Notes under the pieces: model-generated
Told to the model about the DNA's origin: nothing
Databases searched by the model: none
What the model saw: the letters and a program-made list of their open reading frames with translations, nothing else
Program-made: the position numbers and the translations under genes
Shown here: one piece after another, positions 3,862-7,951 of the stretch
Numbering within the stretch: position 1 is the stretch's first letter
Layout: every line of letters begins with the position of its first letter
Assembly: GCA_002691835.1 (NCBI GenBank)
Contig: NZJA01000146.1
Location: 10,488 to 20,264 of the forward strand
Length of the DNA stretch: 9,777 nucleotides
From: Planctomycetota bacterium
GTDB taxonomy: Bacteria > Planctomycetota > UBA8108 > UBA1146
Direction: 5' to 3'

Positions 3862-3878
3862 GGATCACTTCAGTGACC
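3862..3878 (-). other. Small hairpin across the stop codon of the monohaem cytochrome gene
   Basis: On the minus strand GGTCACTGAAGTGATCC can fold into a stem of about six pairs with one bulged T and a TGAA loop, spanning stop codon TGA 3872-3870. No U-run follows immediately (the next bases are TTGCTC), so it is a poor rho-independent terminator. A T6 tract appears only about 40 bases further on. It may be an mRNA 3' structure or chance. Confidence 0.25.
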
Positions 3879-4685
3879 TTCTAATAATTGGATCACTGTT
3901 GATGGAGAGGCTTTTTTCGCAAAGGCATCCATAAAGGTTTTTTCATCGGGGATGAAATTGCCTTCACTGGGCCACTGATTGCCGATCTCTGGTTTGTCTT
4001 TAAAAGAGTTGATCTTCGTGAGATAGCTTCGATAGGCGTCCCTGAACGAGGTCCGTACTGAAGCAATGATTTGCAGATACTCGGCTTCTCCCACAGATGT
4101 GTGAGGATAAGACCAGGTAGTGGCACCCATCACATCGTTGAGGACCCAGTCTGTCTTTGGTGAAGCCGGGTGTTCGTTATGGCAGGTCACGCACGCTTGC
4201 GCCGCTGCGATATCGGGAAACATCGCCACTTGCAGACCGGTTCGTGAATCCATAAAAAATTCCGGCTTTCTGCTCTTTTGGATACTTTCAAATCGGCCGA
4301 TCTGATCACCCTTAAAAGCGTTCGTTGGAGTGATCGGCATATGAGAACCAAGGACCAGTTCCAGTCCTATATTTTGACGGGACAAGCTGGCGGCTGCTTT
4401 ACTTAAAAACAACGCAGGTAACGGTCCAGCGTCGACCCCTTCGTTTTCCCAATTTTCATCGAAGTGAAGCCCGACCTTTTTACCTGCTCCGACAATCGAT
4501 TGGGTGTAAAGAGTACGTACCACGTCATTTTCTGCCGCGATGGTGGCGAACACCTTCTCGATGGGAATGTCTGCGACGGCACTGCGCTCGTTGACTTCAG
4601 GGAGCGGTACAGGTGCGCTCACTGCACTCCAGACGATCAAAAGAACGAGCAATAAAGCGAACAGATGAGAAAAGGTGATCTTCAT
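3870..4685 (-). CDS. Periplasmic monohaem cytochrome c, Tll0287-like (DUF3365) domain
   Basis: The 271-aa product has a Sec signal peptide (residues 1-24, ending AVSA before PVPL) and one haem c site, CVTCH at 165-169. The segments around it (LGSHMPITPTNAF, MFPDIAAAQACVTCHNEHP, then WVLNDVMGATTWSYP at 180-194) match the pattern of the DUF3365/Tll0287-like domain, a PAS-like haem c fold found in soluble cytochromes and sensor ectodomains. In cyanobacterial Tll0287 a Cys serves as the second haem ligand. Here the only cysteines are the two of the haem motif, so the sixth ligand must be something else. After residue 200 there is a helical tail with no motif I know. ATG 4685 overlaps the stop of the pentahaem gene as ATGA (4685-4682), which suggests translational coupling. 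Its role is probably as a redox partner or redox sensor of the upstream chain. Confidence 0.85.
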   Translation of the reverse strand: MKITFSHLFALLLVLLIVWSAVSAPVPLPEVNERSAVADIPIEKVFATIAAENDVVRTLYTQSIVGAGKKVGLHFDENWENEGVDAGPLPALFLSKAAASLSRQNIGLELVLGSHMPITPTNAFKGDQIGRFESIQKSRKPEFFMDSRTGLQVAMFPDIAAAQACVTCHNEHPASPKTDWVLNDVMGATTWSYPHTSVGEAEYLQIIASVRTSFRDAYRSYLTKINSFKDKPEIGNQWPSEGNFIPDEKTFMDAFAKKASPSTVIQLLEGH

Positions 4686-5365
4686 GGAGAAGTCTCTCTC
4701 TCTTCCGGGTAGGGGTTAATCAGTTTTCCGTATGGGGCCGGTGTTTTTCCATCGAGGTAGCTTTGGACCTGTTTGATGGAGAATGCGTCCTCGAGAGCTT
4801 TAGGCCAGTCGTAATCATGATTGCCATGAAAATCATGGCATTGCAGACACGTTTCCCAACGTTCTTCAGCGATCAGAGTTTGGTGGCGAGGCTCGATGGT
4901 GTCTTTCTTGTCACCCCAAACCTGATGGCAATTCATACAGAATTCCATTGAGTGGACAACATTGATGGAAGAGTGGTGATCATGGCAACCCATGCATTGG
5001 TGCTGTCCAAGAGTCTCTCTCAACTCAAAATATTCTGAATGAGCAAAACGATGCTGGGGATGCAGATTCTTTGGCATCTCGTGACATGCGAGGCAGTCTG
5101 CTGAATCGACGGGATTTGTCAGGAATGGAGCGCCTTCTTTTCGAAAGCCAAGCCAGTGGTGGACATTGGCCTGAACTTGTTGCCTTACAGATCCAGCTGC
5201 AGGCTGGTGACATTGCTCACATGCCATCTCCTCATGCATTTCTTGATCACCACCTGGGCTCAGGAATTGTTCCTGGCGTGGAGATAGAAAGGCGGCGAGG
5301 AGTGTCAGCGTCAAGACCATGCCCAGCCACAGTGGAGCAGTTCTGGGGAATCCGCCAGTTCTCAT
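4682..5365 (-). CDS. Membrane-anchored pentahaem cytochrome c
   Basis: The 227-aa product has an N-terminal membrane anchor or uncleaved signal (about 10-28, APLWLGMVLTLTLLAAFL). Five CxxCH haem c sites follow: CEQCH 49-53, CLACH 91-95, CMGCH 124-128, CMNCH 143-147 and CLQCH 173-177. Many further histidines between them (for example HDHH 128-131 and HDFHGNHD 177-184) can act as distal ligands. The haems face the periplasm. Start ATG 5365 is chosen because GGAGGA (5376-5371) lies five bases upstream and the frame overlaps the preceding stop as ATGA (5365-5362). The open frame extends to 5755, but that extra part lies in antiphase with the upstream gene and is discarded. The family is a c3/NapC-like multihaem protein in the broad sense, and I cannot name a closer subgroup. 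It most likely takes electrons from, or gives them to, the membrane haems of the upstream protein. Confidence 0.9.
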   Translation of the reverse strand: MRTGGFPRTAPLWLGMVLTLTLLAAFLSPRQEQFLSPGGDQEMHEEMACEQCHQPAAGSVRQQVQANVHHWLGFRKEGAPFLTNPVDSADCLACHEMPKNLHPQHRFAHSEYFELRETLGQHQCMGCHDHHSSINVVHSMEFCMNCHQVWGDKKDTIEPRHQTLIAEERWETCLQCHDFHGNHDYDWPKALEDAFSIKQVQSYLDGKTPAPYGKLINPYPEERETSP

Positions 5366-7902
5366 GATGGTCCTCCATGTCCCAGAATCAGCCATACATG
5401 CAAGAGCCCCAAAGCGGTCAACAGCAGAGAGATGACGATATGAGGATACAGCCAAAGACGTAAGAACCGTTGTTTTTGAATCGCGCCAGAAATCCGTGAA
5501 CGATCGGCGATGCCGATCACGGTGTGAGTCAAAAACAGAAGGGTGATCAGTCCAAGGATTCCCGCCCCGAATCCGCTTCCATGAAGAAGAAGGAGCAATG
5601 GCGAAAAAGCACCGATTCTTCGGTGGAGTTTCAGGGAGCTCGAAGAATTGCGGATCGATCGGCGCATACGTTGCATTGGGAGAATCCATTGCCATCCAAG
5701 AAACGCCATCAATGCACTGCCGGAGATCCAGTGGCCTCCGGAAGTCTGCTGCCATTCTTTCCAGTCATGAGGAAGAAGGTCCATGCTGAGAACAAGGGCG
5801 GTGAGAATGGTCGTGACCCAGCCAGATACCCACGCTATGGAATCTTTTGGAATCGAATCCAGTGAAGTCGAATTTCGGGCATGGAAGAGTTCTAAACGAA
5901 TAGATTCTTCCGAGACTCCAATATCATTCAGATGTTCAAGCATCGTCTGCTCGAAACCTTCTGGGCCACAGATCATCCACTTTGCAGTGGGGTAAAGTGC
6001 CGAGTAATGCTGAAGATTTTCCCGCCGGAGTCTCTTGCCAGCGAGAGTTTCCCGAATGTGATATTCAACGTCAGGATGTTCTTCAGCAGTTTGGATGAGT
6101 TCTTCACGGCAAGGCCCAGAACGATTGCTGTGCATCGAGTGGTCGACGACGATTCGCGGACCTTTATTAAACGCTATACGGCTGCGGACGATGTTGAGGG
6201 CCGGAGTGACGCCGATTCCAGCGACCAGAAAAATAATCGGATCGGTGCTGTTCAGGTCTGCGATAAATTCACCGCTGGGCGGCGATAGAAGGAGAGTTTC
6301 ACTGCCGGGTTTTGCACTGGAAAGCCATCGAGAAAAAAGGCCGTGGGGTTCATTTTTGAAAGTGATTTCTCGCCAGCGCGTTTCATTGGCTGGGCTGGTC
6401 AAGGTGTAAGAGCGACGGATGGTTTCTCCATGAATTTCCACTTCAATCCGGACGTGTTGGCCAGGCTGAAAAGTCGACAGAGGTGTTTGATCTTTGGGGG
6501 TGAATCTTGCTCGGAAGAACCCGGGCTGAAACTCGGAGATTTCTAGCAGATGCATCTCTACATTGTCGGAAGATTGACAGAGAGCCGCTATTTCCCCGCG
6601 ACAGCCTCCGCAAACGGTTCCCGCGCCTGTTTCTTGCATCACCTGTTCCTGTAGACAAGAAGAAGTTTCAACCAATCCCAAAATTTCAGAGCGAGTAATC
6701 TGCATGCAGTGACAAAGAGTGTCGCTTTGTGCCGCTTGTTCAAACAGTAATCCGGTGGTTTCAAATTTGCGCCACTGTTCGACACTCACAGGAGTTTTAT
6801 GGCGTATCGCTTCGATGATGCGTCCGGCTTCGGGATGCGGGCCATTGAGGCGTGCGGCAGTAATCACGCCCATAGTCATTTCCAGTTGATAGTGGATGTC
6901 ACGTTGTTCTTCTCGATACGAGAAAACCATCGCGTCCCCGAGAGTTGGAATGACTTCGATGGAGACTGAATCTGAATGAACATTGAAGTCGGTAATCAGT
7001 TGCCGGTCTGAATCAAGCTGAATCGTTGAGGTGAAACGAGGTTGTCCTTCCACCTGATAATGAAACTGTAAAACGACCTCATCGGAACGATTGCGATAGA
7101 TTTTTCGAAGCGTCAGCAGATGTTGAGCAAACTCCTGGTTTTCGCGGGCAAGAGTTAAAAAATCTTCTGCCTGGAGAATCAGTAAATGGCAGGTGCTTTG
7201 GGTGCGCGCTCCAGTTGATCGAGGGACTCCATTGCTAACTCCCAGTTCACCGAAAATTTGGCCTTCTCCCAGGCTCGATTTGATTTTTCTGTCCTCTGAT
7301 ATGATCTCTACTTGACCGTGGAGAATCAGGAAAACTTCTTTCGAAGGATCTCCCTGCCCAAAAATCAAAGCTCCTGCTGGAAGAATCTTTTCTTCGTAGT
7401 TCAGGCGTGTTGAACCCTGTTGGGTCATCAAATTAAACAGAGGTGACTGGCTGACCAGAGAGTCGTGACTTTTTAGTTTTCTACCACGCTGTGCACTGTG
7501 TCCGAGGAAATCAGTAAAGGAGCCGATTTCCTTGATGAGGGTGTAGGGGATTTCGATCAGCGTTGAATTTCCCCGAGCGCGAACAGAGGCACTGCGGGTC
7601 TGATCCTGCCGAGTTGCTGCCCATTCACCGAGAGCGTCTCCTTGCTGAAAGAGACGTGCAAGGATCAGTTCCGGATCTTCCGGGGGGCCTTTGGCGTAGA
7701 TTTCGAGATCTCCCTGAATAATCAGAAACAGGGATTCACCTCGGTCACCCTTGAAAAAAAGGTGTTCACCAGCCGCAAGAAATTTGTGATGGGCTCTTGA
7801 GGCTAACTGCCACTGTTGATCAGGAGTCGCCCATTTCAGATCAGGACAAGATTGAATGGTCTGTAGTAGAAAATTTGTGGCAGGGGTCGCTGGCCGGTTC
7901 AA
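5362..7902 (-). CDS. Fusion protein: 2x cNMP-binding, BFD [2Fe-2S], FAD/NAD reductase, dihaem b-like membrane domain
   Basis: The 846-aa product starts at TTG 7902, fixed by AAGGAG (7915-7910) seven bases upstream. Domains in order: Crp-type cyclic-nucleotide-binding domain 1 (about 14-135, phosphate cassette with Glu93 and Arg103); domain 2 (about 150-265, FGEL with Glu219 and Arg228); an unassigned segment (about 270-390) without cysteines; a BFD-like [2Fe-2S] domain (Cys397, Cys399, Cys431, Cys434, spacing as in Bfd and NifU); an FNR-type FAD domain (about 446-548, RRSYT at 496-500, GLFSRWL at 521-527); a NAD(P) domain (AGIGVTP 561-567, CGPEGF 645-650); and about five membrane helices from 689 to 840. 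His760/His774 in helix three and His821/His835 in helix five have the spacing of the dihaem ligands in ferric reductase/NOX proteins. There is no DNA-binding domain. Probable role: ligand-modulated transmembrane NAD(P)H dehydrogenase feeding the downstream c cytochromes. Flow in the reverse direction is also possible. Confidence 0.88.
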   Translation of the reverse strand: MNRPATPATNFLLQTIQSCPDLKWATPDQQWQLASRAHHKFLAAGEHLFFKGDRGESLFLIIQGDLEIYAKGPPEDPELILARLFQQGDALGEWAATRQDQTRSASVRARGNSTLIEIPYTLIKEIGSFTDFLGHSAQRGRKLKSHDSLVSQSPLFNLMTQQGSTRLNYEEKILPAGALIFGQGDPSKEVFLILHGQVEIISEDRKIKSSLGEGQIFGELGVSNGVPRSTGARTQSTCHLLILQAEDFLTLARENQEFAQHLLTLRKIYRNRSDEVVLQFHYQVEGQPRFTSTIQLDSDRQLITDFNVHSDSVSIEVIPTLGDAMVFSYREEQRDIHYQLEMTMGVITAARLNGPHPEAGRIIEAIRHKTPVSVEQWRKFETTGLLFEQAAQSDTLCHCMQITRSEILGLVETSSCLQEQVMQETGAGTVCGGCRGEIAALCQSSDNVEMHLLEISEFQPGFFRARFTPKDQTPLSTFQPGQHVRIEVEIHGETIRRSYTLTSPANETRWREITFKNEPHGLFSRWLSSAKPGSETLLLSPPSGEFIADLNSTDPIIFLVAGIGVTPALNIVRSRIAFNKGPRIVVDHSMHSNRSGPCREELIQTAEEHPDVEYHIRETLAGKRLRRENLQHYSALYPTAKWMICGPEGFEQTMLEHLNDIGVSEESIRLELFHARNSTSLDSIPKDSIAWVSGWVTTILTALVLSMDLLPHDWKEWQQTSGGHWISGSALMAFLGWQWILPMQRMRRSIRNSSSSLKLHRRIGAFSPLLLLLHGSGFGAGILGLITLLFLTHTVIGIADRSRISGAIQKQRFLRLWLYPHIVISLLLTALGLLHVWLILGHGGPS

Positions 7903-7909
7903 GAGAGAT

Positions 7910-7915
7910 CTCCTT
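7910..7915 (-). promoter_or_regulatory. Strong ribosome binding site deciding a TTG start
   Basis: AAGGAG on the minus strand lies seven bases before TTG 7902. The next residues run straight into the first cyclic-nucleotide-binding domain and there is no upstream ATG in frame, so the TTG is the convincing start. The site overlaps the edge of an 8-bp palindrome, GAGATCTC (7905-7912). Confidence 0.8.
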
Positions 7916-7922
7916 CGATCTC

Positions 7923-7951
7923 ATTATAGGGGGGGCTTTAACTTTAGTCAC
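7923..7951 (-). promoter_or_regulatory. Predicted sigma70-type promoter of the redox operon
   Basis: On the minus strand a perfect TATAAT (7928-7923) lies 17 bases after GTGACT (7951-7946), which matches four of six positions of the -35 consensus. The spacer contains a run of seven C. The predicted start near 7916 leaves a leader of only about 14 bases, just enough for the Shine-Dalgarno sequence. The -35 overlaps the last codons and stop of the HI0933-family gene, so the redox operon can be transcribed separately from it. Confidence 0.6.

Follow-up and report, generated by a model that had tools for sequence, protein, structure and literature searches.

A predicted cyclic-nucleotide-gated NAD(P)H oxidoreductase with a C-terminal dihaem b membrane domain and multihaem c partner genes in a Planctomycetota bacterium

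A 9,777-nucleotide stretch of DNA from a Planctomycetota bacterium (GenBank assembly GCA_002691835.1, contig NZJA01000146.1, positions 10,488 to 20,264 of the forward strand; hereafter the window) encodes on its minus strand a protein of 846 residues, which joins two cyclic-nucleotide-binding (cNMP) domains, a BFD-type [2Fe-2S] domain, an FNR module and a putative dihaem b membrane domain in one chain and is followed by overlapping genes for a pentahaem cytochrome c and a sCache_heme protein. With a probability of about 0.62, this protein would transfer electrons from NAD(P)H to periplasmic cytochrome c under cNMP gating and supply the cytoplasmic and membrane portions of an electron conduit encoded by three genes. 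The reading draws on domains, conserved ligands, gene overlaps, topology bias, co-occurrence and interchangeable fusions, all read from sequence, from which we infer cofactor loading, direction of electron flow, gating and substrate. The two partner genes make it likely that the reductase protein is a subunit. If true, a transmembrane NAD(P)H oxidoreductase would combine ferric-reductase-type haems in reversed order with an in-chain ligand switch and a multihaem c outlet. The parts of the three-gene unit are the following.

5362..7902, minus strand: intact and complete 846-residue open reading frame (ORF) in the order cNMP, cNMP, beta domain, BFD, FNR, dihaem b membrane domain
7910..7915, minus strand: ribosome-binding site AAGGAG, read directly, 7 nucleotides upstream of the TTG start at 7902
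7522..7809, minus strand: first cNMP-binding domain, residues ~32-127, with E93 and R103
7138..7386, minus strand: second cNMP-binding domain, residues 173-255, with E219 and R228
6718..7110, minus strand: beta-rich stretch with no Pfam match of its own, residues 265-395
6580..6717, minus strand: BFD-type [2Fe-2S] domain, residues 396-441, with C397, C399, C431 and C434
6265..6510, minus strand: FAD-binding part of the FNR module, residues 465-546, with R497-S-Y499-T
5944..6228, minus strand: NAD(P)-binding part of the FNR module, supported by its fold and sub-cut-off in Pfam, residues 559-653
5380..5841, minus strand: five-helix dihaem b domain, residues 688-841
5625-5623 (H760), 5583-5581 (H774), 5442-5440 (H821) and 5400-5398 (H835), minus strand: codons of the haem-ligand His
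4682..5365, minus strand: pentahaem c protein, 227 residues, with an N-terminal hydrophobic anchor, five CXXCH and five invariant His
3870..4685, minus strand: sCache_heme protein (Tll0287-like, PF11845), 271 residues, with an N-terminal hydrophobic anchor and one CXXCH

A first-pass annotation made from the letters alone had described a single ORF fusing two cNMP domains, BFD, FNR and a membrane domain, which is borne out by an intact frame with every residue it had named at its position. The suspicion that the fusion could be an assembly error is removed, as relatives in separate assemblies share the layout, and sequence comparison confirms this layout as real and conserved across loci. Equally, the start site of close relatives lies at about the same residue as that of the TTG-started window ORF. 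A TATAAT at 7923-7928 of the minus strand, 20 nucleotides 5' of the TTG and within the 41-nucleotide gap after an HI0933-like gene, is a possible promoter for the three-gene unit. No description of this architecture turned up in the open-licence full-text literature, a weak negative, as the search covered mainly listings and abstract openings.

In the cytoplasmic part, Pfam places the two cNMP domains (PF00027 matched twice, 108 bits), BFD and FAD_binding_6 above cut-off and NAD_binding_1 slightly under, while the membrane part gives no match. The phosphate-binding cassettes of the two cNMP domains, GEWAATRQDQTRSAS and FGELGVSNGVPRSTGA, keep Glu and Arg, and the two Crp-type ligand domains with the cassette pairs E93/R103 and E219/R228 proposed from the first look thus stand. 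The same holds for the BFD cysteine set, as PF04324 scores 28.0 bits against a cut-off of 26 and the cysteines of the pattern CxC-x31-CxxC are conserved in homologues, whereas of the FAD and NAD motifs read at first only the FAD part is supported by a match above cut-off and the NAD part by fold. With FAD and NAD domains of the FNR fold, the protein falls among the FNR-type flavoproteins. The end of the beta-rich stretch and the BFD domain align with NirB-type reductases (TIGR02374 on residues 371-444). An AlphaFold2 model of the whole protein from a 36-row alignment reached a pLDDT of 83.7 and a pTM of 0.40, such that the individual domains are well predicted and their mutual arrangement is not.

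Modelled alone, the membrane domain (pLDDT 89.2, pTM 0.83) consists of five helices, with His760/His774 and His821/His835 each 14 residues apart in helices three and five as originally noted. These four His are kept in 31 of 36 chosen rows, the other five having no complete domain. Lys and Arg number five each in loops 2-3 and 4-5 against 1, 0 and 0 in the outer loops, and the same charge bias in 15 related rows argues for the FNR module inside and the C-terminus outside; H760/H821 would accordingly be placed near the cytoplasm and H774/H835 near the periplasm. Helices and topology fit His pairs that may face each other and hold two b haems.

Kinship to the ferric reductase and NADPH oxidase (FRE/NOX) family was assessed by profile comparison. 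In hhalign, a profile of 16 dihaem b domains (A5) matched the N-terminal parts of eight TM-FNR proteins with a probability of 90.6 and all four His in register, which upholds the initially noted NOX/FRE-like four-His pattern. The eight TM-FNR proteins come from other genomes, and the one checked, L072, has PF01794 above cut-off. Fused members only gave a probability of 69.8 (score 39.5) and split members only 85.1, whereas controls scored at most 18.4 (20 column shuffles) and 14.7 (reversed) with a probability of at most 0.8 throughout; fused and split dihaem b profiles matched each other at 99.8. PF01794, one of the families that the first-pass annotation proposed to look for, gave no row for the window protein at E <= 1 in Pfam; the split dihaem subunit of L026 matches PF01794 below cut-off (16.5 bits), and split or related dihaem domains show weak sub-cut-off matches to PF01292 (cytochrome b561) and PF14358. 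A search of solved-structure profiles returned no match at E <= 1 for profiles A5 and A3, while profile A6 gave ten matches at E <= 0.1, mostly octahaem nitrite reductase fragments alongside one c3, one putative multihaem cytochrome and one entry annotated as cystathionine beta-synthase. By the hhalign evidence, the dihaem b and FRE/NOX membrane domains are related, the former lacking the sixth helix.

The FRE/NOX membrane domain has six helices. With FRE, NOX and SpNOX, the window protein shares the four His 14 apart in the third and fifth helix, an FNR-fold FAD/NAD module and the profile match, but it has the reductase first, five helices and no PF01794 match, and it adds BFD and cNMP domains and a multihaem c protein as likely acceptor; because domain order, helix number and Pfam match deviate, it is not filed as an FRE/NOX member. 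The reversed domain order pointed out earlier is evident from the Pfam order. According to PMC3591440, the FRE/NOX core is a membrane domain followed by FAD and NADPH domains, NOX2 carries its haems on His101/209 and His115/222, and STEAP2-4 have an NADPH-binding domain N-terminal to a ferric-reductase membrane domain, an architecture which the paper states was not predicted for bacterial metal reductases. A reductase in front of a ferric-reductase-type membrane domain is therefore not wholly new, although STEAP2-4 differ by the nucleotide-binding fold PF03807, two of the four His and the lack of BFD and ligand domains.

The two genes downstream overlap their predecessors by ATGA, with the ATG of the pentahaem gene (5365) in the reductase stop and that of the sCache_heme gene (4685) in the pentahaem stop. 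In the pentahaem protein five CXXCH and His44, 102, 131, 161 and 180 are invariant in 12 of 12 rows, and the five extra His suggest five bis-His haems. Considered as an NrfA pentahaem nitrite reductase, in which the catalytic haem sits at CXXCK, the second gene was rejected, as none of its five sites departs from CXXCH and a further five His are invariant; in the test for NrfA membership, PF02335 does not appear among the families that Pfam gives for the window protein at E <= 1. The third gene matches PF11845 with 27.8 bits against a cut-off of 24.1, and among the three haem parts sCache_heme shows the highest conservation (mean pairwise identity over 11 loci including the window 48.0%, against 39.7% for the pentahaem protein and 30.0% for dihaem b). 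When 7,998 candidates of similar length were scored, 2,281 clusters fell into its group at E <= 1e-20. In the window protein plus the best 120 of these matches, CXXCH is present in 121 of 121, 55 positions including R57, M155, H172 and W191 are at least 97% conserved, no Cys is among the latter, and 99 of the 121 have no Cys besides the CXXCH. The c haem of sCache_heme has no evident sixth ligand. As in Tll0287, the third gene has the PF11845 match and one CXXCH, yet it differs by the absence of the conserved axial Cys present in Tll0287 and in the P. putida protein and by its tie to pentahaem and dihaem b partners. PMC12889525 describes a protein without axial Cys that binds nitric oxide (NO) tightly and a protein with Cys that binds NO weakly, as does its C59A variant, so that a missing Cys alone is no proof of NO binding. 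The words operon, FNR and multiheme are absent from the main text of PMC12889525.

The gene set recurs in other genomes. In a scan with one genome per species, of which the best 80 of 83 loci (L-numbers) were considered, many holding only FNR or NOS-type relatives, a pentahaem gene was found in 16 (L001-L009, L011, L018, L019, L026, L029, L030 and L034) and a sCache_heme gene in all of these. The search for the same architecture elsewhere, suggested at the outset, was thereby successful: 13 of the 16 have the FNR part joined to dihaem b (distributed over two frames in L030; the reductase ORFs of L005 and L034 are cut at the N-terminus by contig ends). In L018, L026 and L029 the fusion is swapped: cNMP-BFD-FNR is fused to the pentahaem protein, and a separate gene of 154-159 residues after sCache_heme carries the four His. 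A pentahaem profile search at E <= 1e-25 retrieved 19 of 1,488 genomes (11/392, 3/398, 1/200, 2/251 and 2/247), comprising nine search centres, four with the match figures of L002, L004, L006 and L008 and six new ones. All 19 have sCache_heme beside the pentahaem gene; dihaem b is fused to FNR in 13, a separate gene in five and undecidable at a contig end in one. L101, L102 and L103 have the three haem genes without an adjoining FNR gene, and a cNMP-BFD-FNR protein was not found elsewhere in these genomes, whose assemblies may be incomplete. In a tree of pentahaem and sCache_heme proteins the FNR-less loci are interspersed with fused ones at low to moderate support, such that the tree does not settle the order of gain and loss. 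By assembly labels, which can be wrong, the loci presumably belong to Planctomycetota, Pseudomonadota, Acidobacteriota, Chloroflexota, Gemmatimonadota and Campylobacterota. One pentahaem profile match, L097 (G006:C36:304077-304724), was flagged with two internal TGA; the gene is read in L019 as an intact 220-residue ORF with five CXXCH.

The cNMP-BFD-FNR core is equally found on other effectors. With residues 280-846 as query, 7,996 length-limited candidates were scored, and 52 proteins including the query (P-numbers) were obtained, of which 13 carry an NO synthase (NOS) domain, one a P450 and four EF-hands. Pfam resolves two cNMP domains, BFD, FAD and NOS in L012 and L020 and two cNMP domains, BFD, FNR and P450 in L010, and in P0030 (Sorangium) EF-hands precede BFD in place of the cNMP domains. 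The varied effectors on the same core indicate a recurrent design of N-terminal gate, BFD-FNR and swappable effector, in which the gate would function as such. The fusion swaps reveal interchangeable inputs (FNR, NirB-type or none), gates (cNMP, EF-hand or none) and effectors (dihaem b, pentahaem, NOS or P450). The NOS and P450 fusions (L012, L020, L010; P0025, P0027, P0030) are possibly gated self-sufficient enzymes. Pfam places a nitrite/sulphite reductase domain behind an FNR-type NAD domain at L060:24-2190, in one frame that is open at the N-terminus. PMC3701330 describes the Sorangium cellulosum-type NOS (scNOS) as an N-terminal [2Fe-2S], FAD and NAD reductase with a C-terminal effector, an order that the window protein shares with a dihaem membrane domain as effector instead.

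In the proposed mechanism, NAD(P)H would reduce the FAD of the FNR module with the BFD cluster beside it. Electrons would next reach the inner b haem (H760/H821) and from there the outer one (H774/H835), exit to the periplasm by way of the pentahaem protein, whose five c haems are probably bis-His ligated, and finally arrive at the sCache_heme protein, whose one c haem would be the point of contact with a substrate or signal. Gene overlaps, co-occurrence and the fusion swap mark the c haems as natural acceptors. MsrPQ with the flavin reductase Fre likewise leads from a cytosolic flavoprotein over a ferric-reductase-type membrane haem protein to a periplasmic partner, but by separate proteins, with a molybdenum partner and neither c haems nor ligand-binding domains. 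The large sCache_heme group would thereby gain candidate redox partners, and its role becomes testable.

A cyclic nucleotide on the two N-terminal domains would switch or tune the reductase. Nearly all chosen homologues with cNMP domains retain the Glu and Arg of both cassettes, the exceptions being P0004 with Ile at E219 and P0028 with one cNMP domain, and 14 of the 16 genomes searched, including 8 of 8 planctomycetes, encode PF00211 cyclases; cNMP control of the reductase is thus plausible. Gating as an integral trait is weakened by L008 and L019, which have the same membrane domain in ORFs too short for cNMP domains, so gating appears to be an accessory. A sCache_heme sensor on a cyclase that would close a loop was considered; the seven stretches inspected in four genomes (of 13 PF00211 matches) showed none. 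Of the gated transmembrane NAD(P)H oxidoreductase of the first-pass annotation, layout and membrane kinship hold and gating becomes plausible and accessory, while that annotation had missed the operon partners, the forms that are split or lack FNR, and the occurrence of the core on NOS and P450 domains.

Three alternative explanations have to be weighed against an electron outlet to the c haems. The dihaem b domain could trade electrons with the quinone pool, with the multihaem quinol dehydrogenases CbcL and NapC as a model and the NAD(P)H front end as an optional second input. The FNR-less sets of pentahaem, sCache_heme and dihaem b in L101, L102, L103 and L105, with no cNMP-BFD-FNR protein found elsewhere in those genomes, and the sub-cut-off matches to PF01292 and PF14358 speak for this, whereas reductase and dihaem domain share one chain in the window and in 13 of 16 loci; a quinone link is considered rather unlikely, if the least so of the three. 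Quite improbable is a redox or NO sensor, in which NAD(P)H electrons only set the redox state of sCache_heme, which signals in the absence of bulk turnover. In PMC12889525, Tll0287/DUF3365 domains fused to signalling modules have NO-sensor properties and the NO-binding protein has no axial Cys, a trait consistent with the window class, which has no conserved Cys; the stand-alone protein described there, however, behaved as a redox protein, the product of the third gene carries no output domain for signalling, and none of the nine window ORFs scanned has a kinase or cyclase match in Pfam.

Furthermore, the kinship of the membrane domain to FRE/NOX with four His in register and the multihaem c partner could suit a NOX-like or ferric-reductase-like enzyme which donates electrons directly to extracellular O2 or metals, in which case the c proteins would be incidental or provide an extracellular electron route. 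As the overlapping genes, the co-occurrence of both c proteins and the fusion swap point to the c haems as acceptors, this has the smallest share of probability, and the NAD(P)H:periplasmic cytochrome c oxidoreductase is preferred.

A distant version bears on the substrate of this oxidoreductase. Five genomes with weak pentahaem matches (E 4e-14 to 1e-10) encode a NirB-type flavoprotein with a C-terminal extension, checked by Pfam or NCBIfam in four and by blastp only in L109.

L104:8141-11505, L106:8198-11558, L107:6778-10091, L108:8619-12095, L109:8789-12276: gene pair of a NirB-type flavoprotein-BFD-membrane part and a multihaem c protein

The order of flavoprotein, BFD and dihaem b and the multihaem c neighbour resemble the window version, but the flavoprotein is of the Pyr_redox_2 type, has no cNMP match and is accompanied by 10-11 c haems. 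A sCache_heme gene follows in four of the five, and four His at a spacing of 14/14 were read in L104 and L106. P0028, with 737 residues, one cNMP domain, BFD, FNR and a four-His membrane domain similar by eye to the NirB-type one of L104, may link the two versions. Genes of a nitrate-type ABC transporter adjoin in L106 and L108, with one of the two ATPases of L108 above the ntrCD cut-off and the other slightly under, and a molybdopterin reductase in L106 and L108 has formate dehydrogenase alpha and NasA as best NCBIfam rows, all sub-cut-off, so its identity is uncertain. A globin gene lies one or two genes off in L104 and L107, and L109 has neither globin nor nitrate-type transporter.

From the globin and nitrate-transport genes near the distant version, the substrate is guessed to be a nitrogen oxide, for instance NO or nitrite, a weak and indirectly founded first guess that is more likely wrong than right. 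Less likely than this, and also than a quinone link, is a new class of second-messenger-gated, NAD(P)H-driven periplasmic nitrogen-oxide reductases in which a NOX-like wire turned inside out would feed the pentahaem protein as relay, with the sCache_heme haem as catalytic site. If the nitrogen-oxide reading were true, the gated core would make NO on NOS and remove nitrogen oxides on the dihaem domain, and the sCache_heme haem, known to date only in sensing or redox roles, would be catalytic. That the distant version replaces a missing nitrite reductase is not supported, as PF01077, which does not separate sulphite from nitrite reductases, is present in all five genomes; among window-type genomes it was found in neither of two tested, whose assemblies may be incomplete. 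NO production by NOS in window-type planctomycetes likewise gained no support, with PF02898 found in none of eight genomes.

The surroundings of the window unit are partly shared. Where present, the flanking HI0933-like and alkaline phosphatase genes are 79-95% identical to their counterparts in L001-L005. Between sCache_heme and a chalcone-isomerase-like gene lies a FAD_oxidored gene (PF12831) of approximately 550 residues in L001 (5182-6837) and L005 (3734-5386), ORFs of matching size occur also in L003 and L004, and in the window sCache_heme adjoins the chalcone-isomerase-like gene directly with no FAD_oxidored gene between. At 570-1280 on the minus strand, a 236-residue ORF with no Pfam match and a relative of 47% identity in L005 reads like a cold-shock-type fold at the N-terminus followed by membrane helices.

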